Positions 13,388-42,933 of a DNA stretch of 49,739 bases are shown one piece after another (positions within the stretch are counted from its first letter, which is position 1; the number at the start of each line of letters is the position of its first letter). Under the pieces are notes generated by a model, which saw only the letters and a list, made by a program, of their open reading frames with translations, was not told the DNA's origin and did not search any database. The DNA is taken from positions 1 to 49,739 of the forward strand of contig CAMTPA010000013.1 in NCBI GenBank assembly GCA_947074275.1, written 5' to 3'. Source of the DNA: an uncultured Bacteroides sp. Lineage in GTDB: Bacteria; Bacteroidota; Bacteroidia; Bacteroidales; Bacteroidaceae. The position numbers and the translations under genes were made by a program.

Positions 13388-13486
13388 TCCATTCGTTTTT
13401 TAGTAGTTCAAAAACAACAAACTGCCACAACACACTCATTATCAATGCACAACAGATGTGACAGCCGACAACCTCAAACAGCAGTG

Positions 13487-21455: not shown

Positions 21456-21659
21456 TAGTTATTATAATTAGAGTGTTATAGTCTATCTGCTACCTATTTT
21501 GAAAGTGTCATTCAGAGTGTGTGGGGATGGGTTGAGAAACAACAATCTCCACTTCACAACCAAAAGACTGAGATAGGGTTTCAGTTTTCGTAATTATGAA
21601 ATGGAGATTGTTCTATTTTATTGCTCAATACATTGAAAATATATCTTACTTTAACAAGT
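21456..21659 (-). other. Structured 204-nt spacer inside the operon
   Basis: This lies between the second susD and the GH43 gene, where all other gaps in the operon are 5-22 nt. Arms 21541-21551 (AACAATCTCCA) and 21602-21612 are perfect complements, extended by four more pairs after one mismatch. No T-run and no TAnnTTTG element is seen on the minus strand. Confidence 0.55.
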
Positions 21660-23477: not shown

Positions 23478-23495
23478 ATATCAAAATCTATTATT

Positions 23496-26711: not shown

Positions 26712-26729
26712 ACATTATTCGATTTAAGA

Positions 26730-28496
26730 TTACCAACCCGGATTATTCTCAATATTCGTTTTCCAAACCTCAGTTTCCGGAATTGGATACAGATACATTT
26801 TATCAGTAAAGGTGCGTTGTTGAGCTACCTTACGAGTATACACCGCTCTGCCGTCTTGCAATGTCACATCCATACCGTAGATTGGTCTTGCCAAAGCCTC
26901 TACTGCTACATTCCAACGACGAACATCCCATACACGGTGTTCTTCAAAAGCTAACTCTACTGTGCGCTCTTTGCGAATAAAGTTTCTAATTTGCGATTGT
27001 GTTTGCAAGTCGGCACGTTCTGTCAGCAAGGCTGTCATACCCACACGGTCGCGAATAGGTTGCAATGTGTTCAACACCACTTCACGGCTTGCACCTGTTT
27101 CATTCAATGCCTCAGCATAGTTCAGCATAATCTCGGCATAGCGAATGATGCTCCAGTTGCGATAGCTTGTACCAGTATGCACTGCACTCAAGATTGCTTC
27201 TGGAATGTATTTGCGCACATAATAGCCAGTAGGAGTAGCGTTGGCATTGCCCACAGGATTATCTCGTTGGCCAATGATTACATTGATAGCACCATTGCCC
27301 CATTCTACACCGTGGTACAATACGCTTGCAGCCAAACGAGGGTCACGGTTTGCGCAAGGGTTGGTATCGTCATATCCACTACCAGCATTGATTGTAGGAG
27401 CCGCATTTCCATTGTAAACAGGAGCACCCGTTGCATCGTATTGTGCAAATGGAGCTGTACCATCTGCCATATCATACATATCCACCAAGTTTTGCGATGG
27501 ACAAAGACCACCATTACCACCTTCACCTACGGGAGTATCATTAAAGATTGCACCCCAACCTACTTTCACGTCGTTGCGGAACATAATCACCTCTTTGTTA
27601 TTTCCTTCGTAGGAAGTTCTCAAAATTGCATTCGTATAAGCTGTTTTGCCATCCAAATCGGTAAATAGCTCATAGTTGTGACCGTATTTAGTCATAAAGT
27701 TATTGGCAGCATCCACGGCATTTTGCCAAGTCACACCCGATTCGTTTCTGAAACGGTCGCTTGCCATATAAAGCGAAATGCGAGAAATCAAAGCACTTGC
27801 AGTAGGCTGATTGATACGGCCTGCATTGGATGCGTTGATCGACTCTTCATAATCTATCAAGTCGGGTTCGCACTCATTGAGTTCTGTCAAGATGAAATCT
27901 ACCACATACTCTTTCAAAGAAGGACGAGTGGTGTAACCTGTTAGCAAGTCACCGTCTGGATCTAAAACCTCTTTCACGATGGGCACAGGGCCGTAGCGTA
28001 AAAACAATTCCCAATAGAAATAAGCACGGAAGAAACGAGCTTCGGCTTTGTAATTCATCTTTTCTTTCTCGTATTTTTCTTGTGAATCGTCAATCGACTT
28101 TGGCACACCATCTATTCTTTCAAGAAGCATATTGCACTTGCGAATGCCACGATAACGGCTTTCCCAAATCGAAGTCAATTCGGCAGATCCGCTCCACGCA
28201 TAATAGTTTCCGATATTGAAGCTTGAACGTGTTCCGCCAGTCGAATAGCTTGTCTGTCCCAAATCGGATGCTGTATCAAGCCACGATTGATTGACGCGAC
28301 CTGCTCCGTGCAATAAGAAGTTGTAGGTATCTGTGTGGAATTGTCTCATAGTAGTCCACTCGCTAAACACCTGTTCTTCGGTCAGCTCATTACTTGGTTG
28401 TTTGTCCAAGAAACCGCCAAAAGCATCCTCGCAAGAGGTTAAGGTGGCCATTCCCATCCCCAACACAAAGGCTGTATATAATAATTTCTTTCTCAT
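26730..28496 (-). CDS. SusD-like glycan-binding lipoprotein (first pair)
   Basis: 588 residues. The lipobox LTSC gives Cys22, followed by FLDKQPSNELTEEQVFSEW. Family helices include AEARFFRAYFYWELFLRYG and IMLNYAEALNETG, and the C terminus holds RKERTVELAFEEHRVWDVRR. It is the surface lid and binding partner of the SusC encoded 5 nt upstream. Its sequence is clearly different from the second SusD, so the two pairs are not a recent duplication and may handle different arabinan fragments (inference). Confidence 0.93.
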   Translation of the reverse strand: MRKKLLYTAFVLGMGMATLTSCEDAFGGFLDKQPSNELTEEQVFSEWTTMRQFHTDTYNFLLHGAGRVNQSWLDTASDLGQTSYSTGGTRSSFNIGNYYAWSGSAELTSIWESRYRGIRKCNMLLERIDGVPKSIDDSQEKYEKEKMNYKAEARFFRAYFYWELFLRYGPVPIVKEVLDPDGDLLTGYTTRPSLKEYVVDFILTELNECEPDLIDYEESINASNAGRINQPTASALISRISLYMASDRFRNESGVTWQNAVDAANNFMTKYGHNYELFTDLDGKTAYTNAILRTSYEGNNKEVIMFRNDVKVGWGAIFNDTPVGEGGNGGLCPSQNLVDMYDMADGTAPFAQYDATGAPVYNGNAAPTINAGSGYDDTNPCANRDPRLAASVLYHGVEWGNGAINVIIGQRDNPVGNANATPTGYYVRKYIPEAILSAVHTGTSYRNWSIIRYAEIMLNYAEALNETGASREVVLNTLQPIRDRVGMTALLTERADLQTQSQIRNFIRKERTVELAFEEHRVWDVRRWNVAVEALARPIYGMDVTLQDGRAVYTRKVAQQRTFTDKMYLYPIPETEVWKTNIENNPGW

Positions 28497-28501
28497 ACTA
28501 A

Positions 28502-31500
28502 TTAAAATTTAACATTAACACCAAAGTTAACCGATCTCATAATGGGGTAACGGTTTGATCCATTGCTTTCAGGGTCAACCATACCATCCAAATGATCCCA
28601 AGTAATCAGATTGTTAGCGTTTACATAGAAACGGCATTCGCTCATTGCAGCTTTAGAAATCCAACGTTTTGGAAGTGAATATCCCAACTCGATATTCTTC
28701 AAGCGAAGGAAAGAACCGTTTTGCAAGAAGAATGAGTTTTGACGTTGGTTGTGGTCGCCGTTTCCTGCATAGTGCAATCGTGGATAGCGAGCCGAAGCTA
28801 AGTTTTCAGCTTCGCTCAAAGCTGGATTCCAACGTTTCAAGTGATGTTCTTTCACTTTACCACCATTCACGAAAGCATACATCGCTTCTGCATCGTAATA
28901 GCGGCTCACGTTTGTCACACCTTGGAACATCACGCTAAAGCTCCATCCCTTATAGTCGCATCCCAAAGATAGTGCGTAAGTGTTTTCGGGAATATCACTG
29001 AAACCGATGAATGTTTCGTCACGGTCGTCGATAAATCCATCACCATTCATATCGCGATACTTCAAGTCGCCCACCTGCACATTTCCGTAAGTAGATGTTG
29101 GGAAGTTAGGGTTGGCAATATCCGCAGCTGTCACAAAGCCGTCGCACACCAATCCGAAGTATTGGTTGATAGCTTGTCCCTCACGTTTGCGATAACCAGT
29201 TTTTGAACTTGGCTCATCCATATCGATGATTTCATTTTTAGCGTGAGAGAACGTGAATCCTACATTGTAGAAAAAGTCACTTCCAATGTTGTTCATATGG
29301 CGAAGCTCGATTTCATAACCTGAGTTTTTGGTTTTACCCAAGTTTCCTGCTGCCATATTTACACCTACCCAGTCGGGGCGGCTTGCATAGGGAGTAAGGA
29401 TGTTGTTGCGTTTTTCGTAGAAGTAATCTACAACACCACTCAACTTACCATTCCAAAGCGTAAACTCAACACCGGCATTCGATTTGTGAGCACGCTCCCA
29501 AGTTACACCGTAGTTGGGATATTGGCTTTCGAAGATACCTGTCTGGCCGTTTGTTCCAAAATAATAGTCGTTATTGATTTGCGACCAAATAGCTTGATAC
29601 AAGAAACGTTGTTTGACACCATTTACTTGATATACATCATTACCTACTTGTCCGTAAGAAGCACGAATTTTCAAACTGTTCAACCATTCGCTGGTACTCT
29701 TCATAAACTCTTCGTTGTTGATTCTCCAACCCAATGAGAAAGAGGGGAAGAAACCGAAACGTTTGCCACGCATAAAGTTTTCAGAACCGTTGTAACCAAA
29801 GTTCACCTCACCCAAATAGCGATCGTCGTAGCCATAAGTTGCACGACCCACCAAACCTTGATAACGTTCTGCCAAGTTCGATTTATAACGGAAATCGTTT
29901 TGATTGTAAAGCACCATTGCCGAAACATCGTTCTTGCCAAATGTGCGCGACCAATTTACTTGAGCCTCCATATAAAGCTTATAGGTGGTTGCACTAAAAT
30001 CACCTCCATTGCCAGCATACGACAATTCGGTATCAGAGTTAAATTGATTGTAAGCGTCAATCGAGTTGTAGTTATTGCGATCGTTTAGTTCGTAAGTAGC
30101 AAATGTACCTGTGAACTTACGGTTGTAATATGCATCGTAGTCGAAAGAGACCATACCACGTGCTTTCAAGCCGGGAGTCAACCAATCCATCTTATAATCT
30201 AACACGAAGTTGGTTTCGTTGATTGTGTTGGTAGCACGATAGAAACCTGCTTTTGCCAAACGACCTACAATGTTGTTTTGATATTGAGAGCTACCACCAA
30301 ACAACGTTTGTGTTTCATCGCCTTCGCCTACTGTGTAAGCCACGGGAAACAACCATCCCGGTGTATGATTCAATTCGTAGAACACCTCATTATAAACAGA
30401 GTTCTCATTTGTATTCGGGCCTTTACGCTCTTCAAAGCGTGTACCAAAGTTTACCGACATAGTTAAATCGGATGTCAATAGGAAGTCAAGATTGGCACGG
30501 AATGAGTAACGACGGAAACTTGAGTTCGACTTGTTGCCATATTGGTCCATACTGAAGTTGCGATACAAACCCTGTTGATCGTAGAACTCAGCAGAAGCGA
30601 AGTAACGCATACGTTTTGTACCACCTTGAATGTTTACATTGTAGCGTTGCGCTGGAGCCGATTTGCGTAGTACGGTGCCATACCAGTCTACATTTGGATA
30701 AAGCAAAGCATCGATACCACTCAACTGACCAGCAGAAGATTTGCGGAACATCTCAAGATCGGCAGCCGAATATTGCGAAGGCAGACCATCGTTTGCCAAA
30801 GCCTCTTCGAGCAATGACACCGAGTTGTACGAATCCAAATAAGTATCGGTACGAGTAGGCGACTGAATTTGGAAATTGGCAGTCAAGCTTACTGTTGGTT
30901 TTTGCTCGCGACCACGTTTGGTAGTAATCAACATTACACCATTCGCACCACGCACACCATATACAGCCGTAGCCGAAGCATCTTTCAGTGTTGAGATAGA
31001 CTCAATATCATCTGGAGCAATTTGCGAGAAAGCACGCTCTACACCATCTACCAAGATAAGCGGTTGGTTGTCGCCCGCAAACGAAGCACGACCACGGATG
31101 AAGATTTGCATATCGTCCGAACCCGGAGCACCCGATGTTTGTGAAGTAATCACACCGGGAATCTTACCAGCGATGGCTTGCGAGATATTTGCAGCAGGCG
31201 ATTTAAGAAGCTCCTTAGAAGACACTTGTGAGATAGCACCTACCACACTCTCTTTCTTCTGAGCACCATAACCCACTACTACCACCTCTTCGAGTGTTTC
31301 AGAATCTTCGTGCATCAACACGTTGAAAAAGCTTTTTCCACCTACTGTTATGTCTTGTGTTACATAACCCACGTAGCTCACTTGCAGCACGGCGTTATCT
31401 CCCGATACTGTCAATGCGAAATTTCCATCAAAGTCTGATACCGTACCGTTGGTAGTACCTTTTTCGAGCACACTTGCACCGATGATTGTTTCGCCCGATG

Positions 31501-31636
31501 AGTCTTTGACAACACCCGTTACTCTCTTCGATTGTGCCCACATACACTGACAAAGCAGCATAAGTACAAATATCGCAAGCATTCGTGGAGAAAGGTTTCT
31601 CCACAATGCTTTTATAGTTATTTGCTTGTATTCCAT
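28502..31636 (-). CDS. SusC-like TonB-dependent transporter (first pair)
   Basis: 1044 residues. The signal peptide (MLAIFVLMLLCQCMWAQ) follows an N-terminal charged stretch. The regulatory domain reads VTGVVKDSSGETIIGASVLE, the TonB box region is TLEEVVVVGYGAQKK, and the plug has PLILVDGVERAFSQIAPDDI and LKDASATAVYGVRGANGVM. The rest is the 22-strand barrel, ending in an aromatic residue. It imports glycan fragments with its SusD partner. It starts 22 nt after the LamG lipoprotein gene, so all six genes can share one transcript. Confidence 0.95.
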   Translation of the reverse strand: MEYKQITIKALWRNLSPRMLAIFVLMLLCQCMWAQSKRVTGVVKDSSGETIIGASVLEKGTTNGTVSDFDGNFALTVSGDNAVLQVSYVGYVTQDITVGGKSFFNVLMHEDSETLEEVVVVGYGAQKKESVVGAISQVSSKELLKSPAANISQAIAGKIPGVITSQTSGAPGSDDMQIFIRGRASFAGDNQPLILVDGVERAFSQIAPDDIESISTLKDASATAVYGVRGANGVMLITTKRGREQKPTVSLTANFQIQSPTRTDTYLDSYNSVSLLEEALANDGLPSQYSAADLEMFRKSSAGQLSGIDALLYPNVDWYGTVLRKSAPAQRYNVNIQGGTKRMRYFASAEFYDQQGLYRNFSMDQYGNKSNSSFRRYSFRANLDFLLTSDLTMSVNFGTRFEERKGPNTNENSVYNEVFYELNHTPGWLFPVAYTVGEGDETQTLFGGSSQYQNNIVGRLAKAGFYRATNTINETNFVLDYKMDWLTPGLKARGMVSFDYDAYYNRKFTGTFATYELNDRNNYNSIDAYNQFNSDTELSYAGNGGDFSATTYKLYMEAQVNWSRTFGKNDVSAMVLYNQNDFRYKSNLAERYQGLVGRATYGYDDRYLGEVNFGYNGSENFMRGKRFGFFPSFSLGWRINNEEFMKSTSEWLNSLKIRASYGQVGNDVYQVNGVKQRFLYQAIWSQINNDYYFGTNGQTGIFESQYPNYGVTWERAHKSNAGVEFTLWNGKLSGVVDYFYEKRNNILTPYASRPDWVGVNMAAGNLGKTKNSGYEIELRHMNNIGSDFFYNVGFTFSHAKNEIIDMDEPSSKTGYRKREGQAINQYFGLVCDGFVTAADIANPNFPTSTYGNVQVGDLKYRDMNGDGFIDDRDETFIGFSDIPENTYALSLGCDYKGWSFSVMFQGVTNVSRYYDAEAMYAFVNGGKVKEHHLKRWNPALSEAENLASARYPRLHYAGNGDHNQRQNSFFLQNGSFLRLKNIELGYSLPKRWISKAAMSECRFYVNANNLITWDHLDGMVDPESNGSNRYPIMRSVNFGVNVKF

Positions 31637-31658
31637 AGTGTTTTTATATTATTAGATC

Positions 31659-33431
31659 TTAATTACTGGTTGTTAAGTAAGGGTAGTAAGCCACAGTGCG
31701 TACATCGAGGCTCGCCAATTCTACCGTCAAGAACAATCCGATTTCAGGAGTTGAGATTCCTTCGTAATAGAATGTATAGTCGGGAAGTTTAGTGCCATCG
31801 GCAGTAGTCACTTTCGCGGTCATATTCAATCTATTACCAGAGCGTGTCAATATCACCTTGCAATGAGCACCTTGCATCTGTTTCACGTAGTTGTCCCAGT
31901 CGTATCCACTGCTAATAGCCTCGCCGTTGTAGTTGCCATCTCCCCAGCCCCAAGCATCGGCACGAAGCACGAAATATTCTGCATAGTCGTCTTCGCCAAA
32001 CATCTTGCCGTTGGTCATCACAAGCAACCAGTTGTTCCAGTTGGCAGTAGCATTTGTATTATTTATAAATGTATATACAAAAGGTGCAGGAGTGTTGCCC
32101 GATATAACAGATAGTTCCGAGCGATATGTCCACCAAGGAGCAGTACAATCGGCAGGACCTACCAAGTAAGTTCCAGCATCGTAAGCATCGCCCGAGTAAA
32201 CGGTTTCTGGATCGATTTTCAGATAAGCACCTTCACAAGTAAGGAATGCGCCAATTGATTCGCCAAGATCACCATCGTAAGTCACCTTATAAGTATATGT
32301 TTTTTTATCTTCTGTAGTCACGATAGCAGTCACATTGAGTGTAGAGCCGCTACGTTTAATTGTCAAGTCTACATAAGCACCGTTCATATCCGAGGTGAAT
32401 GTATCGAAATTGAAGTCGTGTGTCATATTCTCTACCGAGAAACCTGCGTCACCCCAGCCCCAAGCATCCGAACGAAGAACAAAGTGTTCGGCATATCCAG
32501 CTTCGCCACGGTCTTTGCCATTGGTCACCACAAGCAACCAGTTGTTCCAGTTGGCGTTTCCATTGGTGTAGTTGTAGAACCCGAAGTGAATGGTTTTATC
32601 GCCAGTAGCTGTCACCAAATCCGAGAACGCCGACCACCAAGGAGTAGTACAGTCTTCAGAACCAATAATGATTGAGTTGTCCTCTTCTACCTCGTCTAAA
32701 CTTGGAAGAGCTGTTTCTTTGTCGGTCACCACATTGCGATATACACGAACATCGTCTACCCACATTTGTTGGGCATCCGATCCTGAACCATAACCTAAGT
32801 AAAAGTAAGGAAGTGTAGTGATGTTGTTCACTATCTCGTTAAAGTCGAAAGAGCCATCGGCTGTTTGCTCGTAAGCTTTTTCTCCATCTATATAAATGAA
32901 GAAGCCATCGGTTTTCACACTCAATGCTACATAGTGCCATTCGTCGGCAGTCAAAGCATCGGTAGGTTGCGAAGGGTTGTTTACCTCGAAAGATGCGCCA
33001 GCACCTTGGTATTTCAACCACGCATTGGGAGTAAAGAAAAGCTTTGTTTGCTCCTCTTCATCCATAAAAGAAAAAATTGTAGCAGAAAGATTGTTTGCAG
33101 TAGTCTTTACCCAGAAAGTAACAGATGCGCCTGTTTGAATTTTAACATTGAGCAGAGGGTTTGACACACGCGCAAAGCCGCCATTCAATTGAAGTACATT
33201 TCCTTTCTCGCTATCCGAAACGATTTCGGGAATATTACCTTCGCCATAAGCACTCAAGGTAAACTCTTCAGGTGAAAGTTCGTCTTCGAACTTGTACTCC
33301 CCTTTCAATTCAAGTCGAGGGTAAATCTGATTGCCGGCAGGTGGATCCATTTGACCCCAATCCTGGCACGACCACATACTAAACGTCAGTAGTGTGACTG
33401 TCAATATTGACAACCATTTTGGTGATTTCAT
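31659..33431 (-). CDS. Surface lipoprotein with LamG domain and duplicated Trp-rich module
   Basis: 590 residues. The lipobox FSMWSC gives Cys22. Residues ~45-233 are a LamG/concanavalin-like sandwich (ASVTFWVKTTANNLSATIFSF, DEWHYVALSVKTDGFFIYID, VDDVRVYRNVV). Two copies of a ~160-residue module follow (about 255-412 and 423-580), each with DCT(T/A)PWW, NWNNWLLV(V/M)TNGK and FVLR(S/A)DAWGWGD. The tryptophan-rich pattern suits carbohydrate binding. No catalytic motif is seen. As first gene of the SusCD operon it probably acts as an arabinan-binding surface protein (inference). The two modules are also similar at DNA level, indicating duplication. Confidence 0.8.
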   Translation of the reverse strand: MKSPKWLSILTVTLLTFSMWSCQDWGQMDPPAGNQIYPRLELKGEYKFEDELSPEEFTLSAYGEGNIPEIVSDSEKGNVLQLNGGFARVSNPLLNVKIQTGASVTFWVKTTANNLSATIFSFMDEEEQTKLFFTPNAWLKYQGAGASFEVNNPSQPTDALTADEWHYVALSVKTDGFFIYIDGEKAYEQTADGSFDFNEIVNNITTLPYFYLGYGSGSDAQQMWVDDVRVYRNVVTDKETALPSLDEVEEDNSIIIGSEDCTTPWWSAFSDLVTATGDKTIHFGFYNYTNGNANWNNWLLVVTNGKDRGEAGYAEHFVLRSDAWGWGDAGFSVENMTHDFNFDTFTSDMNGAYVDLTIKRSGSTLNVTAIVTTEDKKTYTYKVTYDGDLGESIGAFLTCEGAYLKIDPETVYSGDAYDAGTYLVGPADCTAPWWTYRSELSVISGNTPAPFVYTFINNTNATANWNNWLLVMTNGKMFGEDDYAEYFVLRADAWGWGDGNYNGEAISSGYDWDNYVKQMQGAHCKVILTRSGNRLNMTAKVTTADGTKLPDYTFYYEGISTPEIGLFLTVELASLDVRTVAYYPYLTTSN

Positions 33432-33482
33432 AATACAGATTTTTATTTGGTTTTTGTTTTTCTTTGTTGTTATACAACGCTA

Positions 33483-33490
33483 CAAAACTA
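33483..33490 (-). promoter_or_regulatory. -7 element (TAGTTTTG) of the arabinan operon
   Basis: A perfect TAnnTTTG on the minus strand, 52 bp upstream of the ATG at 33431. No -33 TTTG precedes it, as expected of an activator-dependent promoter. Confidence 0.6.
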
Positions 33491-33511
33491 CGTTCTATCG
33501 TAAAAACAGAG

Positions 33512-33550
33512 GTGGATAAATGTATTTTTGATGCGGATAAATGTATTTTT
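33512..33550 (-). promoter_or_regulatory. Two direct repeats, probable HTCS operator
   Basis: Two 18-nt repeats (33512-33529 and 33533-33550) differ at one base and are offset by 21 bp. On the minus strand the core reads ACATTTATCC(A/G)C. The proximal copy ends 21 bp before the -7 element. The motif matches the repeats at 38323-38372. Confidence 0.65.
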
Positions 33551-33930
33551 TACACATATTACTTATTGTCTATCATTGGCACAAGCCCTGCAAACGAGGT
33601 TTGAGCTTTCATTGCATATAAAATGTGATGAACCCATTATTACTGCACACCGATATTTTAAACTATGCGAATCAATCAAATCAACTGTTAATATCCAGCG
33701 ATTCAGACATTCATATTTTATCGGATAACTGTGAACAGCTCACAAGCAGTTATTCTGCATCCCATCAGGGGATGCAATCAATGCACAACATCATACGCAA
33801 AAAGATTATTTCCGAAAGATAAAAATGAGTGGATTTGTTTTTGTATCAATCATCAAGTGTTCGTGTTTCATTGTCCAGTTTAGTTTTTCGTGTTTTAAAA
33901 TTCATTTTGTTTCAACTACAGTTTGTGCAA

Positions 33931-34010
33931 GCTATACCTCGCTTGGTAGATAGGCCTTTCCAGCGTGGTAGATAGGCCTTTCCAGCGCGGTAGGTAGGCC
34001 TATCTACCAC
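33931..34010. repeat. Tandem palindromic array, 22-nt period
   Basis: Three units start at 33945, 33967 and 33989. Units 1 and 2 are identical over 21 nt (GGTAGATAGGCCTTTCCAGC plus G). Each is centred on AGGCCT. Unit 3 ends GGCCTATCTACC, the reverse complement of GGTAGATAGGCC. The left flank GCTATACCT (33931-33939) is also found in the array at 43021. It lies seven bases past the regulator's stop codon. Confidence 0.8.
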
Positions 34011-34016
34011 ACCACA

Positions 34017-37000
34017 TTAGTTTATCAAAGAAGAGGGCGTTACTCCAAAGTGTTTCGTAAAGCAGCGAGTAAAGTATTTCGGGTCGTTGAAACCTACCTC
34101 GTAGGCTATTTCCGAAATGTTCAAGCTCTTGGTTTTCGCATTTCTTTGAATCAGCTCGTGTGCTATGCTAAGTCGATAGTTTCTCATAAATTGCCCGGCA
34201 CTTTGCCCCGTCAAGCTTTGCATCTTCTTGTTCAGCAAGCTCTTGCTCACGCCCATTTCTTCGATAAAGTCGGAGACTTCCCAATGAGAGTTCTGAAAAT
34301 TATCTTTCACAATCTGCATTGCTTTATCGATAAACTTCTTATCACCCGAATCCATCTCGATATTGAGTGCATCTACATCCATACTGATAGAGAACTTCTG
34401 CTGCAAGCGTTTCCGGTTATCAATGATGTTTCGGATACGCGTCAACAAAAGGTCTTCGTCGAATGGCTTCATCAAGTACTCGTCTACCCCTTGGCGGAAA
34501 CCTTCGATGCGCGATTCTTCGGATGTTTTTGCCGTAAGCATCAAAAACGGAATGTGCGACAAAGAGAAGTCGGCTTTCACTCGTTTTGAAAGTTCCATTC
34601 CATCCATCACAGGCATCATCAAGTCGCTCACAATGAAATCAATGGGTCGAGTAGTGAGCACACGCATTGCTTCTTCACCCTGCGAAGCCTCCACAACGTC
34701 GTAATATTCTTTCAATACCGACTTGATATAGCTACGCATATCTTTGTTATCTTCTACAACGAGCACAGTTGTCATTTTATTGCTCAACTCGGGCTGTTTA
34801 TCTACATTTCCTCCAGAATCATCGCTCCATTTAGCCTCTTCAATGGGTTGTGAGCTGACAAATTGCAACGGCAGTATAATTCGGAATGAGCAGCCACCCT
34901 GTACATTATTCTTCACCTTTATATCGCCGTTGTGCAGCTGAACAATGCGCCGACAAAGATATAAGCCAATCCCAGTGCCACTTTGTCCCGATACAGCCTC
35001 TTCTTTGTTGTTGCTCGACTGGTAGAAGCGGTTGAACACCTTGTCCAAATCTTGTTCGGGTATCCCCGTTCCCGTATCTTTGACACACAAAAACAACTGA
35101 GGTTTGCCCTGATAATGCACAGTAGAAACGATGATGGAAATGACTCCACCCTTTGGAGTAAACTTCAAAGCATTACCAATCAGGTTGATTACCACCTTTC
35201 GGAGAGCATTATCATCGCACATCACCTGAGATTGCGGCAAGCGATAGTGAGTTTGAATATCGATGCCACGTTCTTGAGCATAGGCTTTGAACGGAAGAGT
35301 TACTTCATCGAAAAAAGTATTCAAGTTATTGGGTGTGCAAACGATTTCCATCTTGCCCGATTCAACTTTCCTAAAGTCCATCAACTGATTGACAAGCGAA
35401 AGCAAGTATTTTGAATTTCGCTCCACGTAGTTCAGCTGCTCTATCACTTGTGGGTTGTAGCTCAACTTCAACGCACGTTCGATAGGGCCGATGATTAGTG
35501 TAAGTGGTGTGCGAAACTCGTGAGTGATATTTGTAAAGAACGCCAATTTGTCGATGGTGAGTGCTTGTACCTTTTTCGACATCTTGAGTAGTTGCTCTTT
35601 TTGCTTCGTTATTTTTTCGTTCTGCTGTTTTAGCAATTCATTTTGCTGAGACAACTCTTCGGCTTGCACTGTGAGTTGCTTCTTTTGTATTTCGAGTTCT
35701 TGTGTGCGCTCCACCACCTTTTGGTTCAAATGCTCTTTTTGCTGCTTCAAAGAGTTGATGCGCCAAGCAAAGGTTTTATAGCCCAATAATAATAGTAGCA
35801 ACGATACGGATATGATAAACCAGTAAGTTTTATAGAAATAGGGCTTTACCTTTATCGTGAGAGTCTCTGTTTGCTCCACCCAATGCTTTCCATCGGGCGC
35901 ATAGCAAAGTTCAAAAGTATAAGTGCCAGCCTTCAGGTTGGTAAAAGTCGCATTTCGTCTATTAGCCGGCACTTTTATCCATTCATCATCAAACCCACGC
36001 AAACGGTAAGAGTAGTTTGCATAATCGGAGTTCAAATAATCTAAGGCTACAAAATCAAGATTGAGCGATTTATCCCGTTCGTGCATATTGAGCACACCGT
36101 CTACGGGATGCACTTCTTCATTGGCTACTTTTATATGTGTAAATGAAATAGGTATCTGCCCTACCTTTTGATGCAAGGTGGCCGACTTGATAACCGAAAG
36201 TCCAGCAAGGCTACCCAAATAGACATCTCCATCGCGGCCTTTGTGAATAGCATTCCAATAATACTGATTGCTTATCAAGCCATCTTTGCGGTTGTAGTTG
36301 GTAAATAGCTTGTTGTCGGGATAGTAGCACGAAACACCATTGACGGTAGAAATCCAGATACGTCCTTCATTGTCTTCGATTACACCACGCACACAGTTGT
36401 CTATCAATCCATCTTCTGTACGCAAAGCGTGAAAAGCGAATTCATTGTCTTCATCTAAAGTCGAATAGTAAACACCGTATCCATTGCTGCCCACCCACAT
36501 TGTGCCATCTTCGGCTTGAGAAATATAAGTCACACGTTCTTTCAGCTTAGAGTCGGGCTTATCCAACTTGTTGCGCCAAAGTTGATATACCAAGCGAGGC
36601 GATTTGAGTGTACGCAAGTCTATTCGGCACAAACCATTGGTAAGCCCCAGCCACAGGTGGTTGTCTTTCGAGATACAAGACCCCACGGTGCCTTCAAGCC
36701 CTCCCATCTTCAAATCTTTGAAAGGCTCACTCACCAATCCACTTTTCAAATCGTACACGTAAATATTTATAGCAGTCACAACCCAAATCGCTTGGTTCAA
36801 TTCATCGTAGCAGATAGCTCCTACAAATCCCCAAGACAAGTCGGGATACTCCTCGGCATAGATGTGATGAAACCGTTTATCGGAAGGGTTTGATTGGTCG
36901 ACCCAACCAATGCCTCCACCCCACGTCCCCATCCAAAGGCGGTTTTGGTTGTCGGCTGTAAAGCAGCTCACTGAGTTGTGCGACAAAAACGACGGAGCAC

Positions 37001-38240
37001 TTGTGGTGTAATGACTAAAAAAAGAACTATCGGCCGACTTCCGGCTAAGACCTCCCTCTACCGTTCCTACCCAAAGAGTTCCGTTCGCATCTTCGTATAT
37101 GGCATTGACTGGATTTTCGGAAATGCTCGTTGGGATTACTGGCGAGTGAACATAATTGTCTACAAACAAACTGCGTCTGCTGGCTTTGTTCAAGCCACCT
37201 ATCTCGGTGCCTATCCACACAATATCTCCATCGGAAAGCATACAGTTGAGAAAGTCGCAATTGAGTGAGTTGACCGTGCGTTGTATGCCACAACTCTGAT
37301 CGGCATCTTTAATGATTCGCTCAAAAGAGTCGGTAGTAGGATTGTAGATATTCAATCCTTTGAGGGTGGCCACAAGGAGTATATGGTCGTCCGTTTCGGC
37401 AAGATAGGTCACAAAGTTCTGAGACAAAGAGGTTTCGTCTGCCGGATTGTGTTGATAGAGCTTTATCGCCTCATCGTTGATATTGTATCTGAACAGCCCC
37501 ATCGAGGTAGCAATCCACATTTCATTGCTTTTCTGATGAAAATCGCCAATTCTTGTGCCCTGCGGAAACCGCAAAGCAAGCGAGACCAGCACTGGTTCTT
37601 GCGCTTTTGCATCATCTATTTTTATGCGAACCACATCGCTGCCACGGTTGAACCAAAGATAATCATCGACCTGACAAATGGCGAATATCTCTCCATCGTC
37701 ATTCAATGTAGCCACATCGGTGGTTGAAAGCAGATTGCCTGCTGCGTCGAGTTGCACTTTAAAAAGATGATTGCCCGAACAAAACCAAAGATTTCCTTTA
37801 TTATCGCAAAACACTTGCTGAACAGAACGATTGCATAAAGAGTCGAAAGCATCATCCGAATGATTCAACTCCTCTTTTTGTAGCGTGTAGATGTTGATAA
37901 CATCCACCCCCAATTCACTCGCTGTCCAAATTCTCCCGAAATGGTCTTCGCAAATGCTACGAACAAAATTGCTACGTAATGGAGCGCAAGGAGTAGCCAT
38001 ATCAAAGGAAACAAAATCGTATCCATCGTAACGAGCAACCCCACTTCCGGGAGTGGCTATCCACAAAAAGCCACGACTATCTTTTATTATATCGTCTACA
38101 AAATTATTGGGTAAACCCTCGTCCATCGTTAAGAAAGTGAAGTTGTAACGATCGCACCAAGTGGCTTTTCCTGCGTGAGCCTGCAGAAATGGTGTATATA
38201 TAATAAGGTGTAATAAAATGAGGAGGATGTGTTTGTACAT
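34017..38240 (-). CDS. Hybrid two-component system regulator (HTCS) for arabinan
   Basis: 1407 residues. It combines a signal peptide (HILLILLHLIIYTPFLQAHA), a periplasmic double propeller of repeated Reg_prop strands (GLPNNFVDDIIKDSRGFLWIAT is one), and a Y_Y_Y domain ending near 795. A membrane helix at ~805-823, a coiled coil, and a histidine kinase with ITHEFRTPL (His ~907) follow, then the ATPase with GTGIPEQDLDKVF. A receiver (VLVVEDNKDM; phospho-Asp in SDLMMP ~1204) and a C-terminal AraC HTH (ISEIAYEVGFNDPKYFTRCF) complete it. It senses oligosaccharide in the periplasm and activates transcription directly. The frame runs to a TTG at 38264, but the ATG at 38240 starts the signal peptide and a -7 element covers the TTG. 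Confidence 0.95.
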   Translation of the reverse strand: MYKHILLILLHLIIYTPFLQAHAGKATWCDRYNFTFLTMDEGLPNNFVDDIIKDSRGFLWIATPGSGVARYDGYDFVSFDMATPCAPLRSNFVRSICEDHFGRIWTASELGVDVINIYTLQKEELNHSDDAFDSLCNRSVQQVFCDNKGNLWFCSGNHLFKVQLDAAGNLLSTTDVATLNDDGEIFAICQVDDYLWFNRGSDVVRIKIDDAKAQEPVLVSLALRFPQGTRIGDFHQKSNEMWIATSMGLFRYNINDEAIKLYQHNPADETSLSQNFVTYLAETDDHILLVATLKGLNIYNPTTDSFERIIKDADQSCGIQRTVNSLNCDFLNCMLSDGDIVWIGTEIGGLNKASRRSLFVDNYVHSPVIPTSISENPVNAIYEDANGTLWVGTVEGGLSRKSADSSFFSHYTTSAPSFLSHNSVSCFTADNQNRLWMGTWGGGIGWVDQSNPSDKRFHHIYAEEYPDLSWGFVGAICYDELNQAIWVVTAINIYVYDLKSGLVSEPFKDLKMGGLEGTVGSCISKDNHLWLGLTNGLCRIDLRTLKSPRLVYQLWRNKLDKPDSKLKERVTYISQAEDGTMWVGSNGYGVYYSTLDEDNEFAFHALRTEDGLIDNCVRGVIEDNEGRIWISTVNGVSCYYPDNKLFTNYNRKDGLISNQYYWNAIHKGRDGDVYLGSLAGLSVIKSATLHQKVGQIPISFTHIKVANEEVHPVDGVLNMHERDKSLNLDFVALDYLNSDYANYSYRLRGFDDEWIKVPANRRNATFTNLKAGTYTFELCYAPDGKHWVEQTETLTIKVKPYFYKTYWFIISVSLLLLLLGYKTFAWRINSLKQQKEHLNQKVVERTQELEIQKKQLTVQAEELSQQNELLKQQNEKITKQKEQLLKMSKKVQALTIDKLAFFTNITHEFRTPLTLIIGPIERALKLSYNPQVIEQLNYVERNSKYLLSLVNQLMDFRKVESGKMEIVCTPNNLNTFFDEVTLPFKAYAQERGIDIQTHYRLPQSQVMCDDNALRKVVINLIGNALKFTPKGGVISIIVSTVHYQGKPQLFLCVKDTGTGIPEQDLDKVFNRFYQSSNNKEEAVSGQSGTGIGLYLCRRIVQLHNGDIKVKNNVQGGCSFRIILPLQFVSSQPIEEAKWSDDSGGNVDKQPELSNKMTTVLVVEDNKDMRSYIKSVLKEYYDVVEASQGEEAMRVLTTRPIDFIVSDLMMPVMDGMELSKRVKADFSLSHIPFLMLTAKTSEESRIEGFRQGVDEYLMKPFDEDLLLTRIRNIIDNRKRLQQKFSISMDVDALNIEMDSGDKKFIDKAMQIVKDNFQNSHWEVSDFIEEMGVSKSLLNKKMQSLTGQSAGQFMRNYRLSIAHELIQRNAKTKSLNISEIAYEVGFNDPKYFTRCFTKHFGVTPSSLIN

Positions 38241-38261
38241 AGCCTGTTTAAATTTGCTCCA

Positions 38262-38269
38262 CAAAGATA
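38262..38269 (-). promoter_or_regulatory. -7 element (TATCTTTG) for the HTCS gene
   Basis: A perfect TAnnTTTG on the minus strand, 21 bp upstream of the ATG at 38240. Confidence 0.5.
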
Positions 38270-38322
38270 GGCTATATAACTGTTAATGAATATAATTTAA
38301 AGATTTATTTCTACAAAACAAA

Positions 38323-38372
38323 ACAATTGTCCACTCCAAAAACACTATTGTCCACCCCACGTTGTCCACTTC
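38323..38372 (+). promoter_or_regulatory. TTGTCCAC repeats, probable HTCS operator
   Basis: Three direct copies of TTGTCCAC start at 38327, 38348 and 38362. The first two are offset by 21 bp within longer matches ACAATTGTCCAC and ACTATTGTCCAC. The second copy ends 22 bp before the -7 element at 38378. Orientation toward the enzyme operon matches that of the repeats before the SusCD operon. Confidence 0.65.
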
Positions 38373-38377
38373 AAAGA

Positions 38378-38385
38378 TATTTTTG
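38378..38385 (+). promoter_or_regulatory. -7 element (TATTTTTG) of the GH43-GH51-GH43 operon
   Basis: A perfect TAnnTTTG, 39 bp upstream of the ATG at 38425. There is no -33 TTTG, and operator-like repeats lie directly upstream. Confidence 0.55.
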
Positions 38386-38424: not shown

Positions 38425-39954
38425 ATGAGAACTGGTCAAACAAAAAGACACTTCATTTTGAATAGAAGCAATACGTCTCTTTTTATGCTACTTTTATGTG
38501 GAACTTTGATAGGCTTTGCATCTTGTCGTTCAACCGAACAATTCGCGCCTCAAGCTTGCGCCAATCCTTGGGCAGACGATTATACTCCTATATCGGGTAT
38601 GGAACACTACAAATCGTGGGGAACATACAATGTTCACGACCCAGCTTGCAAAAAGATTGGTGACACTTATTATATGTATTCTACCGATGCCATATTTGCC
38701 GAGAATCGCGAAGAAGCGAAAGCCAAAAATGTTCCGTTGGGATACATACAGATGCGCAAATCGAAAGACCTCGTGAACTGGGAGTTTATCGGATGGGCAT
38801 TTGCAGACATACCACAGGAGGCTGTAAACTGGGTACACCAACAAGCCAATGGCGAGGGTGCTACCAACATCTGGGCACCCTATTTGGTTCAACACGAAGA
38901 TACTTATCGCCTTTACTATTCGGTATCGGCATTCGGACTCAACACATCATACATTGGTATGGCCGAAGCACCATCACCCGAAGGCCCGTGGACACAAAAA
39001 GGATGCGTAGTAAAAACAGGTGCAGGAGATGCTATGAACGCTATCGACCCATCTATTGTAGAAGACAAAAAGAATGGCAAACTTTGGATGCACTATGGAT
39101 CTTACTTCGGTGGTTTGTTTTGTATGGAGCTTGACTCTGCTACGGGGCTTGCCAAAACTGAAGATGACAAAGGGCACCTCATCGCACGCCGTGCCGATTA
39201 TAAGAAAGACAACCTCGAAGCTCCAGAAATTATGTACAACGAAGAGCTTGATAAATATTACCTGTTTACATCTTACGACCCGTTGATGACTACCTACAAC
39301 GTGCGTGTGGCTTATGCCGACAAACCCGAAGGGCCTTTCTTCGATTTTCACGGAACGGACATAAAAGACACAACCAACAACGTGCCTGTGGTAACAGCTC
39401 CATATAGCTTTAAAAATCATCCCGGATGGGCAGGCCCCGCACACTGTGGCATTATGAACGATGGAGAAGGACGCTACTTTATGGTGCATCAAGGTCGACT
39501 TTCGCCCGACAATCACTTGATGAACTTGCATTTGCGCCAAGTATTCTTCACCGAAGACGGCTGGCCCGTGGTTTCTCCACAAAGATACACAGGCACACCA
39601 GAGCGCAAATTCAGTAAAAGCGAGTTGGCTGGCGAATGGGAAATTATCCGCATCGTAGAGCCTCCGTTGGTGAGAGACCTTAGTGCCGGACAGATTCTTT
39701 GGGGTGAAGGAAGCCTAAAAGAGGGTGAACAAGCACAATCTACCATCATCACTTTCGATGAAAATGGAAAAGCAGGTGAAGCGGATTGGTGCTTCAATCC
39801 TCAAAAACAGCTTTTAAGCATCAAATCGCCAGAGGAAGAGATTAGCAATTTAATTATTTTTGCAGGCCACGACTGGGAAAACGAGCAAAGCACCGTGCTT
39901 CTGACAGGGTTAGATAACAACGGCTACTCGGTGTGGGGCAAGAAAATCAGATAA
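38425..39954 (+). CDS. GH43 arabinan endo-1,5-alpha-L-arabinosidase
   Basis: 509 residues with a lipobox-like signal (TLIGFASC, Cys34). The GH43 propeller has the base Asp72 (NVHDPA), Asp208 (NAIDPS) and acid Glu265 (LEAPE). WAPYLVQHEDTYRLYYSVSA is the second conserved block. The C-terminal ~110 residues (SKSELAGEWEIIRI to NGYSVWGKK) form the beta domain also present in the GH43 at 19557. It cleaves internal alpha-1,5-arabinofuranosyl links or trims oligosaccharides. Whether it faces the periplasm or the surface is uncertain. It is the first gene of the plus-strand operon under the operator-like repeats. Confidence 0.9.
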   Translation: MRTGQTKRHFILNRSNTSLFMLLLCGTLIGFASCRSTEQFAPQACANPWADDYTPISGMEHYKSWGTYNVHDPACKKIGDTYYMYSTDAIFAENREEAKAKNVPLGYIQMRKSKDLVNWEFIGWAFADIPQEAVNWVHQQANGEGATNIWAPYLVQHEDTYRLYYSVSAFGLNTSYIGMAEAPSPEGPWTQKGCVVKTGAGDAMNAIDPSIVEDKKNGKLWMHYGSYFGGLFCMELDSATGLAKTEDDKGHLIARRADYKKDNLEAPEIMYNEELDKYYLFTSYDPLMTTYNVRVAYADKPEGPFFDFHGTDIKDTTNNVPVVTAPYSFKNHPGWAGPAHCGIMNDGEGRYFMVHQGRLSPDNHLMNLHLRQVFFTEDGWPVVSPQRYTGTPERKFSKSELAGEWEIIRIVEPPLVRDLSAGQILWGEGSLKEGEQAQSTIITFDENGKAGEADWCFNPQKQLLSIKSPEEEISNLIIFAGHDWENEQSTVLLTGLDNNGYSVWGKKIR

Positions 39955-39978
39955 ACTCAATATTTATTTTATAATATC

Positions 39979-41961
39979 ATGAAATTACACAAAACACTAC
40001 TGACGGCTGCAGCTATTGCGCTGGGTGCGTCGGCCTATGCACAAACCACGAATGAGCTGGTGGTGCAGACCAACAAGATTGGTGCAGAGATTCAACCTAC
40101 AATGTACGGCTTGTTTTTTGAAGACATTAATTATGCAGCAGATGGCGGTTTGTATGCCGAGCTGATAAAGAACCGTTCGTTCGATTTTCCACAGAACTAT
40201 ATGGGCTGGAGAATCTTTGGTAACGTGAAATTGATGAACGACGGCCCATTCGACCAAAATCCTCACTACGTGCGTCTTAGCAACGCCGGACACGCCCACA
40301 AACATACGGGTGTAGAAAATGAAGGCTTCTTTGGCATTGGTGTGAAAAAAGGCGAAGAATACCGTTTCTCGGTGTGGGCACGTGGCGAAAACCAAAAAAT
40401 CAGCGTGCAACTTGTGAAGAACAACACAATGGAGGAAGGACAAGCTTTCGTATCGCAAGAGATTACAGTCAACTCGAAAGAGTGGAAGCAATACGAAGTG
40501 GTGTTGACCTCGCCAAGAACTGAAGCAAAAGCACACCTCAGAATATTCCTCGAAACTCCCGGAACAGTAGATTTGGAACACATCTCACTTTTCCCTGTCG
40601 ACACGTGGAAGGGACACAAAAATGGCTTGCGCAAAGACTTAGCACAAGCTCTATACGACACAAAACCGGGTGTATTCCGCTTCCCCGGAGGCTGCATTGT
40701 AGAAGGTACCGATTTGGACACTCGCTACGACTGGAAGAAATCGGTAGGCCCAGTAGAAAACCGCCCGTTGAACGAAAACCGCTGGCACTACACTTTCAAA
40801 CACCGCTTCTTCCCCGACTATTTCCAATCATACGGTTTGGGATTCTACGAATATTTCTTGTTGTCGGAAGAGATGAACGCTGAGCCACTTCCTATCCTTA
40901 GCTGCGGTTTGGCTTGCCAATTCCAAAACACCGATCAAGATGCTCACGTAGCTGTGTGCGATTTGGATAGCTACATCCAAGATGCTATCGACTTGATTGA
41001 GTTTGCCAATGGCGACATCACAACTACGTGGGGCAAAGTTCGCGCAGAGATGGGACACCCCGAACCATTCAATATGAAGTTTATCGGTATTGGCAACGAA
41101 CAATGGGGCGAGGAATACCCCGAACGTTTGAAGCCATTTGTTGACGCACTTCGCAAAGCACATCCCGAAATCTTGATTGTGGGTAGCTCTGGTCCCGATT
41201 CGGAAGGCGCACAATTCGACTACCTGTGGCCTGAAATGAAGAAGCTGAAAGCCGACTTGGTAGACGAGCACTTCTATCGCCCCGAAAGCTGGTTTTTGAG
41301 CCAAGGAAGCCGCTACGACAACTACGACCGCAAAGGCCCTAAGGTATTTGCTGGCGAATATGCTTGCCACGGCGCAGGAAAGAAATACAATCATTACAAC
41401 GCTGCATTGCTCGAAGCTGCCTTTATGACTGGATTGGAACGCAATGCCGACATCGTGCATATGGCTACTTATGCGCCTCTGTTCGCTCACGTAGAGGGCT
41501 GGCAGTGGAGACCCGATATGATTTGGTTTGACAACTTAAATTCGGTGCTGACTTGCAGTTATTATGTGCAACAACTTTACGGGCACAACCGTGGCACAAA
41601 CGTAGTGCCTTTGACTATGGACAAAAAGGCCGTGAGCGGACAAGAGGGTCAGAACGGGCTATTTGCAAGTGCTGTATGGGATAGCAACGACAACTGCTAC
41701 ATCGTGAAAGTGGTGAACACATCGGCTACCGCCCAACCTGTATCAATCAACTTTGCAGGCTTAAAGAAAAACCAAAAATTGGCAAATGGTGAGTGCATCT
41801 TATTGACTTCGGACAATCCAGACCTTGAAAACACCATCGAAAACCCATTTGCTATCACCCCACAAGAGAGCAAAGTAAACATCGAAGGCAATGTGTTGAA
41901 CGTGGACATCGCTCCAAACACATTCGCTATTTATAAATTCACGAAAGAAAACAGCAAATAA
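39979..41961 (+). CDS. GH51 alpha-L-arabinofuranosidase
   Basis: 660 residues with a type I signal peptide ending SAYAQ, so periplasmic. A CBM4/9-like sandwich (YRFSVWARGENQKISVQLV, HISLFPVDTWKG) at ~105-207 interrupts the N-terminal part. The (beta/alpha)8 barrel carries acid/base Glu374 in GIGNEQWGEE and nucleophile Glu460 in VFAGEYACHG; FRFPGGCIVEG is another family block. It releases terminal arabinofuranose, including side chains, from arabino-oligosaccharides with retention of configuration. It begins 24 nt after the GH43 stop. Confidence 0.94.
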   Translation: MKLHKTLLTAAAIALGASAYAQTTNELVVQTNKIGAEIQPTMYGLFFEDINYAADGGLYAELIKNRSFDFPQNYMGWRIFGNVKLMNDGPFDQNPHYVRLSNAGHAHKHTGVENEGFFGIGVKKGEEYRFSVWARGENQKISVQLVKNNTMEEGQAFVSQEITVNSKEWKQYEVVLTSPRTEAKAHLRIFLETPGTVDLEHISLFPVDTWKGHKNGLRKDLAQALYDTKPGVFRFPGGCIVEGTDLDTRYDWKKSVGPVENRPLNENRWHYTFKHRFFPDYFQSYGLGFYEYFLLSEEMNAEPLPILSCGLACQFQNTDQDAHVAVCDLDSYIQDAIDLIEFANGDITTTWGKVRAEMGHPEPFNMKFIGIGNEQWGEEYPERLKPFVDALRKAHPEILIVGSSGPDSEGAQFDYLWPEMKKLKADLVDEHFYRPESWFLSQGSRYDNYDRKGPKVFAGEYACHGAGKKYNHYNAALLEAAFMTGLERNADIVHMATYAPLFAHVEGWQWRPDMIWFDNLNSVLTCSYYVQQLYGHNRGTNVVPLTMDKKAVSGQEGQNGLFASAVWDSNDNCYIVKVVNTSATAQPVSINFAGLKKNQKLANGECILLTSDNPDLENTIENPFAITPQESKVNIEGNVLNVDIAPNTFAIYKFTKENSK

Positions 41962-41964
41962 ACG

Positions 41965-42933
41965 ATGAACAACTTATTTAAAACCATACTAATGGGATGT
42001 GCGGCAATGGCTGCACTCCCTGCTACTGCTCAAAAAGACACTACGTTTGTAGCAACTGGCAATCCCATAGCCACGCACAAGTATTTGGCCGATCCAGCCG
42101 CATTGGTTCACGACGGAACACTATACATCTATGCTGGGCACGACGAATGTCCTCCACCCGCTCAACATTACTTAATAAACGAGTGGTGCATCCTATCGAC
42201 CAAAGATATGGTAAACTTCACAGAGCACGCTTACAAACTGCAAGCCAACAGCTTTGAATGGGCAAAAGGCGAAGCGTGGGCAAGCCAAGTGATTGAGCGC
42301 GACGGGAAATTCTACTGGTATGTAACGGTGGAACACAAAACAGTGCCCGGAAAATCGATTGGTGTAGCAGTGGCCGATTCGCCCATAGGACCTTTCAAAG
42401 ATGCGCGTGGCAGTGCCATTATCACCAATGATATGACTACCGAGCATACTTCCATTTCGTGGGACGATATTGACCCTACGGTATTTATCGACGACGACGG
42501 ACAGGCATACTTGATGTGGGGAAACACACAGTGCTATTATGCCAAACTGAAAGATAATATGATAGAATTGGATGGCCCAATCATCCCCGTAGACCTACCA
42601 CGCTTCACCGAAGCACCTTGGCTACACAAACGTGGCGATTGGTATTATCTATCATACGCTTCGGAGTTTCCCGAAAAGATTTGCTATGCAATGAGCAAAA
42701 ACATCAACGGCCCTTGGGAATACAAAGGCATCTTAAATGAGATTGCTGGAAACTCGAACACAAACCACCAAGCCATTTTAGAATACAACGGACAATGGTA
42801 TTTCATCTACCACAACGGTGCTATCAATCACGATGGTGGAAGCTATCGCCGCTCGGTTTGCATCGACAAGCTCGAATACAACCCCGACGGCACAATGAAA
42901 CGCATTGTAATGACTACCGAGGGGGTTCAATAA
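41965..42933 (+). CDS. GH43 exo-acting arabinofuranosidase-type enzyme
   Basis: 322 residues, a single propeller without extra domains. The signal peptide is cleaved near ATAQ. Catalytic candidates are Asp43 (LADPAAL), Asp170 (DDIDPTVF) and Glu216 (RFTEAPWL). The ADPAALVHDGTLYIYAGHDE start and FTEAPWLHKRGDWYYLSYA are typical of the GH43 branch holding arabinofuranosidases and xylosidases. Three bases separate it from the GH51 stop, so they are co-transcribed. Context points to arabinose release in the periplasm. A strong terminator follows at 42963. Confidence 0.88.
   Translation: MNNLFKTILMGCAAMAALPATAQKDTTFVATGNPIATHKYLADPAALVHDGTLYIYAGHDECPPPAQHYLINEWCILSTKDMVNFTEHAYKLQANSFEWAKGEAWASQVIERDGKFYWYVTVEHKTVPGKSIGVAVADSPIGPFKDARGSAIITNDMTTEHTSISWDDIDPTVFIDDDGQAYLMWGNTQCYYAKLKDNMIELDGPIIPVDLPRFTEAPWLHKRGDWYYLSYASEFPEKICYAMSKNINGPWEYKGILNEIAGNSNTNHQAILEYNGQWYFIYHNGAINHDGGSYRRSVCIDKLEYNPDGTMKRIVMTTEGVQ

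Follow-up and report, generated by a model that had tools for sequence, protein, structure and literature searches.

Conserved 21-bp direct-repeat pairs as predicted operators of the hybrid two-component regulator in a Bacteroides arabinan utilisation locus

Which regulator acts at the short direct repeats that precede both operons of a Bacteroides arabinan utilisation locus, and how are these repeats placed relative to the promoters? The locus lies on a DNA stretch of 49,739 nucleotides from an uncultured Bacteroides sp. (GenBank assembly GCA_947074275.1, contig CAMTPA010000013.1), which as a whole is referred to as the window. Here, the gene of a hybrid two-component system (HTCS) regulator is located between two operons, termed the Sus operon and, for its glycoside hydrolase (GH) genes, the GH operon. 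The repeat pairs very probably serve as operators for the HTCS whose gene they flank, itself a probable ortholog of BT0366 (HTCS_Ara-1), the arabinan sensor of Bacteroides thetaiotaomicron; from sequence, spacing, promoter geometry and conservation we infer both binding and the direction of regulation. The two operators and the promoter elements in front of which they lie are the following, with SGBP standing for surface glycan-binding protein:

33512..33544, minus strand: Sus-side predicted HTCS operator, ACATTTATCCGC-N9-ACATTTATCCAC, half-sites 21 bp apart, 30.2 bits
33483..33490, minus strand: TAGTTTTG, -7 element of the SGBP/SusC/SusD operon, beginning 21 bases after the proximal half-site
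38323..38355, plus strand: GH-side predicted HTCS operator, ACAATTGTCCAC-N9-ACTATTGTCCAC, half-sites 21 bp apart, 36.0 bits
38378..38385, plus strand: TATTTTTG, -7 element of the GH43/GH51/GH43 operon, beginning 22 bases after the proximal half-site

On the Sus side, the half-sites ACATTTATCCGC and ACATTTATCCAC occupy positions 33533-33544 and 33512-33523 of the minus strand, and on the GH side ACAATTGTCCAC and ACTATTGTCCAC occupy 38323-38334 and 38344-38355 of the plus strand, in both cases with a start-to-start distance of 21 bp. Reading of the sequence thereby confirmed what a first-pass annotation, made from the letters alone, had described, namely two copies before each operon, offset by 21 bp and pointing at the operon. 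Single 12-mers with up to two mismatches were not enriched in the window (10 found versus 9.7 expected; 4 versus 8.9), and counts of single motifs were dropped as evidence since their frequency is at chance level. The signal comes from how the copies are paired, from their offset of 21 bp and from where they lie. Motif pairs with offsets of 19-23 and at most four mismatches in total occur twice in the window, both times at these operators. A 36-position HTCS matrix, built from 45 sites of related loci without those of the window, gave 36.0 bits for the GH side and 30.2 bits for the Sus side; the next best place in the 49,739 bases scored -0.7 bits. The rough operator consensus is YC(A/T)TTT(A/G)TCCAC-N9-YC(A/G)TTTGTCCACC. 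The own genome (assembly 92.59% complete) was searched with up to two mismatches. Without mismatch, the pair pattern was found only at the two window operators, and with up to two mismatches 18 matches were obtained versus 19 in a backward control. The sole one-mismatch match (L092, 17.5 bits) was rejected as a member of the regulon; it has no TAnnTTTG about 21-22 bp downstream.

For the analysis of conservation, a first set of 28 loci was used, consisting of the window and 27 HTCS relatives (best segment 42-62% identical), and from each locus the 450 bp preceding the HTCS gene and up to 1000 bp following it were taken. Omitted from this set were L019 (gene cut at the contig edge), L035, L089 and matches of lower identity; L035 has one pair far from its HTCS gene and L089 has none. 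In a motif-free test, direct repeats of 12 bp, identical at 9 or more positions, were present at offset 21 in 42 of the 56 regions, while 30 shuffles gave a mean of 8.7 at this offset (sd 2.8, maximum 15); the next offsets were 27 (20 regions) and 15 (17 regions). With the matrix and a threshold of at least 15 bits, operators were detected on 26/28 GH sides and 21/28 Sus sides, window included. A held-out set of 24 loci was obtained by a genus-wide search, whose cut-off was passed by 44 of 119 genomes and which returned 30 loci, six of them already in hand including the window's own. The held-out set is not fully independent, as L147 resembles L009 and L141 resembles L085. Its sites were found on 22/24 GH sides (28.5-46.4 bits) and 22/24 Sus sides (23.7-47.0 bits), the misses being L140 (no GH43a match in the short flank) and L150 (gene cut) on the GH side, and L157 and L158 on the Sus side. 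Over both sets, at least one site of at least 15 bits flanks the HTCS gene in 51/52 loci, and both sides carry one in 40/52. Conservation in orthologous loci, which the first-pass annotation had named as the test of its proposal, was thus found by the motif-free, matrix and held-out scans alike. Looser Sus-side pairs with an offset of 22 rather than 21 were seen in L007 (11298, plus strand) and L014 (11159, plus strand) and were not counted as operators.

The promoter geometry is equally regular. The repeats end 21 bp (Sus) and 22 bp (GH) before a TAnnTTTG element, and reading by eye revealed no TTG about 17-23 bp before either of these window elements, in agreement with the earlier description of a promoter lacking a -33 box (for the -7 and -33 consensus, see PMC7366714). 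For the GH operators, an exact TAnnTTTG 21-22 bp after the proximal half-site is present in 19/26 of the first set and 22/22 of the held-out set; the remaining seven first-set operators have no exact TAnnTTTG at that place. For the Sus operators, the element follows at 21 or 22 bp in 21/21 of the first set and at 21 bp in 20/22 of the held-out set, with L140 and L156 (masked sequence) as exceptions. The predicted operator ends about where a -33 box would begin, as expected of an activator placed against the polymerase. In region 33400-34020, a scan found no terminator. Six sigma-70-like sites in the same region, versus a shuffle mean of 2.7, were discarded since the pattern is inapplicable to this promoter type.

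This geometry also bears on the opposite direction of regulation, in which the HTCS represses at these sites and is released by phosphorylation. At least one HTCS, BT2391, is reported to repress its polysaccharide utilisation locus (PMC11253607), but the window operator lies upstream of a -7-only promoter and not over it, and BT0366 is described as an activator (PMC5061871). Moreover, the receiver carries a consensus SHIP motif, one form of the S/CHIP motif that has been linked to phosphorylation-controlled DNA binding of HTCSs and tied to binding only after phosphorylation (PMC11253607), so that repression here is scarcely credible. It is very unlikely, too, that the repeats serve another activator, such as the Crp-like global regulator BT4338 or a different HTCS, with the encoded HTCS binding elsewhere. 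The own genome does give 67 matches to this HTCS, and BT4338 is required for full induction in B. thetaiotaomicron (PMC5061871), but the Crp-like motif is given as the palindrome wwwTATGTTnTAnAACATAwww and not as a direct repeat (PMC3878776), only the two window places in the own genome match the pair without mismatch, and the site accompanies the HTCS gene in 51 of the 52 loci, on both sides in 40.

The HTCS encoded between the operons remains the preferred regulator. Predicted HTCS motifs have been described as direct repeats with a mean of 21 bp between tandem sites (PMC3878776), and a BT0366 fragment shifted both the BT0365 promoter and the BT0366-BT0367 intergenic region in electrophoretic mobility shift assays (PMC5061871). 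Together with the conservation and the AraC-type helix-turn-helix (HTH) domain of the encoded protein, these data support the repeats as candidate HTCS binding sites, as first proposed. Several points weigh against this assignment. In the first set, 20/28 loci have operators on both sides, 7 on one side and 1 (L010) on neither; GH-side sites are missing in L010 and L020, and Sus-side sites are missing without technical reason in L007, L010, L014, L015 and L023, while the Sus-side misses of L002 (site beyond the 1000 bases, at 13463) and L017 (contig end) are explained. Also, the operon beyond the HTCS gene is in many loci unlike that of the window, with SusC matches of only 28-37%, compared with 69-81% in L003, L008, L009 and L021; the site therefore tracks the regulator more than the target genes. 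Finally, the likeness to BT0366 and its motif is one by description, no B. thetaiotaomicron locus having been identified among the compared loci. The gene layout matches the published BT0360-BT0369 locus, and the regulator is probably orthologous to BT0366; the L145 HTCS is 50% identical to that of the window.

The first-pass annotation had further suggested that a third motif copy on the GH side may add strength:

38362..38369, plus strand: third TTGTCCAC, the sole downstream copy on any GH side among 91 operators scanned

This copy follows the TTGTCCAC of the second GH-side copy by 14 bp, not by 21 bp. In the 91 operators (47 of the first set, 44 held-out), the only other downstream copy is AATCCAC on the Sus side of L087; upstream of the GH operator, a weak extra copy occurs in L013 and L014 and a loose one in L002. 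A functional, conserved half-site was rejected, as other GH-side operators have no downstream counterpart, and the suggested gain in strength is not borne out for the same reason. The third TTGTCCAC is probably a local extra copy outside the conserved operator.

The first-pass annotation had related the GH-side operator to the GH operon. This appears incomplete, since the same site may also serve the promoter of the divergent HTCS gene:

38262..38269, minus strand: TATCTTTG, likely -7 element for HTCS transcription, separated by 53 bp from the outer edge of the predicted operator on the GH side and followed by the ATG at 38240

In 43/48 loci (21/26 and 22/22, window included), 52-54 bp separate the GH-side operator from a TAnnTTTG element oriented toward the HTCS gene, and only 22/9600 shuffles had such an element at this distance. 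The exceptions have distances of 43 (L015), 50 (L022), 63 (L083), 82 (L021) and 140 bp (L023), two of them being off by one helix turn. As a check independent of the matrix, divergent TAnnTTTG boxes were found 107 or 108 apart in 15/28 loci. Greedy clustering at 70% identity grouped the 48 GH-side spacers into 31 clusters, and in 26 of these at least one member keeps the 52-54 bp, so the spacing is not merely a result of recent ancestry. The notion that the repeats themselves are chance matches, or conserved only through recent common ancestry, draws on the chance-level frequency of single loose 12-mers and on the close relationship of some loci; the motif-free test, the held-out loci, the persistence of the distance across spacer clusters and the gap of about 31 bits between the window operators and the next best place largely refute it. 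In 57 more distant HTCS loci, neither a repeated divergent-box distance nor more than two weak operator candidates were found, and the 52-54 bp layout as a general HTCS feature was dropped as unsupported there; many of these loci may lack a divergent neighbour. The alignment of 26 spacer-cluster representatives also showed an A-tract (AAAA) on the HTCS strand about 13-18 bp outside the GH-side operator in an otherwise diverged spacer, e.g., in L084, L143 and L151, which is perhaps an UP-like or bending element.

In B. thetaiotaomicron, growth on arabinan gave, relative to glucose, mRNA levels more than 1,500-fold higher for BT0364 and BT0367 and 15-fold higher for BT0366 (for the latter, the sentence names arabinose, the figure legend arabinan; PMC5061871). 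In our interpretation, this difference would fit a stronger effect from the adjacent operator position.

On the Sus side, too, the proposed HTCS site is supported but does not seem to be the whole of the operator, since it is overlapped by a second candidate site:

33537..33559, minus strand: AraR-like site, a weak match that overlaps the distal half-site of the Sus-side operator; its core GTGTAAAAAATACAT spans 33541-33555

AraR (BT0354, NrtR family) has operators of the semipalindromic GTGTA-N5-TACAC type (PMC4666351), from which the window copy differs by one mismatch, ending in ACAT instead of ACAC. An AraR homolog is encoded in the own genome (375 bits over 224 residues to BtAraR, PDB 5bs6), with a sodium:solute symporter on one side and a class II aldolase, AraA and an FGGY kinase on the other, an order that we name araP-R-D-A-B; two AraR-like sites precede this ara cluster. 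A search with the bare semipalindrome was uninformative (109 own-genome matches per strand versus 113 in the control), and a matrix of 23 positions was used instead, built from 16 sites of the own genome and relatives with training scores of 18.3-26.0 bits. For this matrix, 16 of 21 matches were used, and five one-mismatch ones were dropped by eye (L123, an overlapping duplicate, L127, L129, L130 and L132); L126 and L131 gave no AraR-like match. Within the window, 33537-33559 scored best with 15.5 bits, followed by 13.9 and 12.3 bits elsewhere.

Across loci, an AraR-like site was scored when a position no more than 60 bp from the start of the HTCS operator reached at least 8 bits, a threshold chosen after the first set had been seen. 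Such sites were detected on 20/43 Sus sides (6/21 and 14/22) and 0/48 GH sides, and 39/4550 shuffles reached the threshold. Relative to the distal half-site, their centres fall at -16 to -14 in 13 loci and at -6 to -4 in 7 loci including the window, i.e., in two registers about 10 bp apart. While the window's site overlaps the distal half-site, those of L145 and L086, both resembling the published BT0365 oligo, and of L084 lie about 10 bp further upstream. Immediately in front of the HTCS operator of L145 stands a 23-bp core of the BT0365 oligo published for AraR.

Against a role of AraR at the window site, 15.5 bits is below the score of every training site and barely ahead of the 13.9 and 12.3 bits reached elsewhere; without the most similar training site it is still highest, with the lead reduced to 13.5 versus 13.2. 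Moreover, an AraR-like site reaching the threshold is missing from 23/43 Sus operators, and among the genus-draw genomes AraR is encoded in 10/11 without and 18/18 with the site, so that its presence does not discriminate and was rejected as a predictor. In B. thetaiotaomicron, deletion of araR left BT0364 and BT0367 mRNA unchanged on glucose or arabinose and altered only the kinetics of both genes after a switch to arabinan (PMC5061871); therefore, AraR may exert a mild or an indirect control here. An accidental site at which AraR has no action nevertheless seems rather unlikely to us. The window site differs in 1 of 19 bases from the distal araP-promoter match of the close relative L121, itself a one-mismatch match, the sites take only two registers across loci with none at GH sides, and the Sus count remains 20-21/43 when L121 or L120/L121 sites are removed from training. 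In vitro, binding of BtAraR to an oligo from the BT0365 promoter is reported (PMC4666351). As judged from these comparisons, the case for AraR appears weak for the window alone and stronger across loci.

Similar arrangements are known from other systems. In Escherichia coli, AraC binds direct-repeat half-sites about 21 bp apart at araI1-araI2 beside the promoter, in a region from which regulator and operon diverge, and acts as a one-component arabinose sensor with DNA looping. The window shares the AraC-type protein, the direct repeats of about 21 bp and the divergent region; it differs in the membrane-bound HTCS and the TAnnTTTG-type promoter, and there is no evidence of looping. Closest in description is HTCS_Ara-1 (BT0366) from a different species, B. 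thetaiotaomicron. Its gene likewise lies between two operons, the first with two SusC/SusD pairs and an endo-arabinanase, predicted HTCS motifs are direct repeats with a mean of 21 bp between sites, BT0366 binds both promoter regions and AraR controls its transport operon (PMC3878776, PMC5061871); the BT0365-60 operon is assigned to dual control by AraR and HTCS_Ara-1 (PMC3878776). HTCS_Rgu-1 (BT4111/BT4124) has two 12-bp sites with a 9-bp spacer as in the window (PMC3878776), but it is another regulator with other targets and is likened by layout alone.

The genes of the locus comprise:

34017..38240, minus strand: HTCS regulator with Reg_prop, Y_Y_Y, HisKA, HATPase, a receiver with SHIP motif and an AraC-type HTH
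19557..33431, minus strand: Sus operon, inferred target 1, located beyond the HTCS stop, with SGBP-like, SusC, SusD, SusC, SusD and GH43 genes
38425..42933, plus strand: GH operon, inferred target 2, with GH43, GH51 and GH43 genes, running away from the HTCS start

All HTCS domains, from the sensor propeller to the HTH, are present in one protein and each exceeds its Pfam cut-off. The SHIP motif comprises residues 1236-1239 when numbered from the TTG start of the ORF tool at 38264; the ATG at 38240 is more likely the start, because this TTG sits within the -7 element TATCTTTG. The label 'SusCD operon' of the first-pass annotation is correct in that two SusC/SusD pairs are present, but the first gene of the operon encodes a Laminin_G_3 protein (31659-33431), probably an SGBP, and the pairs come next. 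Between the HTCS stop and the Sus operon, three tandem GGTAGATAGGCCTTTCCAGC-type copies lie 22 bp apart at 33941-34006. With up to three mismatches, this element has 129 matches in the own genome (58 and 71 by strand) and none in the backward control; it is assigned to a family resembling repetitive extragenic palindromic (REP) elements. In L163 (genome G025), the HTCS ortholog contains, according to the genus-wide search, one in-frame TGA, and both operators are nevertheless present. The genomes G003, G034, G047 and G068 encode a second HTCS, 43-45% identical to that of the window, besides a closer one.

For the mechanism, we propose that the phosphorylated HTCS would bind as a tandem dimer with one AraC-type DNA-binding domain per half-site, the half-sites being two helix turns apart on one face of the DNA. 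The bound protein would end just upstream of the -33 box position, covering about -33 to -66 by our estimate, and would recruit RNA polymerase to promoters having only a -7 box. From about -64 to -97, the GH-side operator would probably also drive the HTCS promoter, resulting in autoregulation. At the Sus operon, AraR, a repressor that responds to arabinose, may compete with the HTCS at the overlapping distal half-site until arabinose accumulates in the cytoplasm, which is the least certain step.

More tentatively, and at a little less than even chances, the locus may represent a conserved phase-locked switch, with one operator for two divergent promoters and a second copy on the Sus side interlocked with an AraR site into an AND gate. 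The distances of 21-22 and 52-54 bp differ by about 31 bp, i.e., three helix turns, and roughly half of the loci show the AraR interlock, in one of two registers that differ by about one turn. If this holds, the AND gate would exist at the transport operon only, where arabino-oligosaccharide in the periplasm would activate and arabinose in the cytoplasm would remove the competitor, and HTCS and AraR would be mutually exclusive in the register of the window. Neither the fixed divergent spacing nor the two AraR registers were found in the literature passages, titles and abstract openings examined; the adjacency in B. thetaiotaomicron may already be drawn in published supplementary site figures.

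HTCSs control much of the glycan use in gut Bacteroides, and most published sites, as far as covered by the sources cited, are computational predictions. The switch itself is of a known kind; what is added is a better-defined and unusually regular promoter architecture around it. The matrix, working on held-out loci, together with the fixed distance to the -7 element provides a rule for locating operators jointly with their promoters. Specific predictions follow from the phase-locked regulator promoter and from the two AraR registers, namely competition or co-binding, by which polymer and sugar signals would be combined at one promoter.

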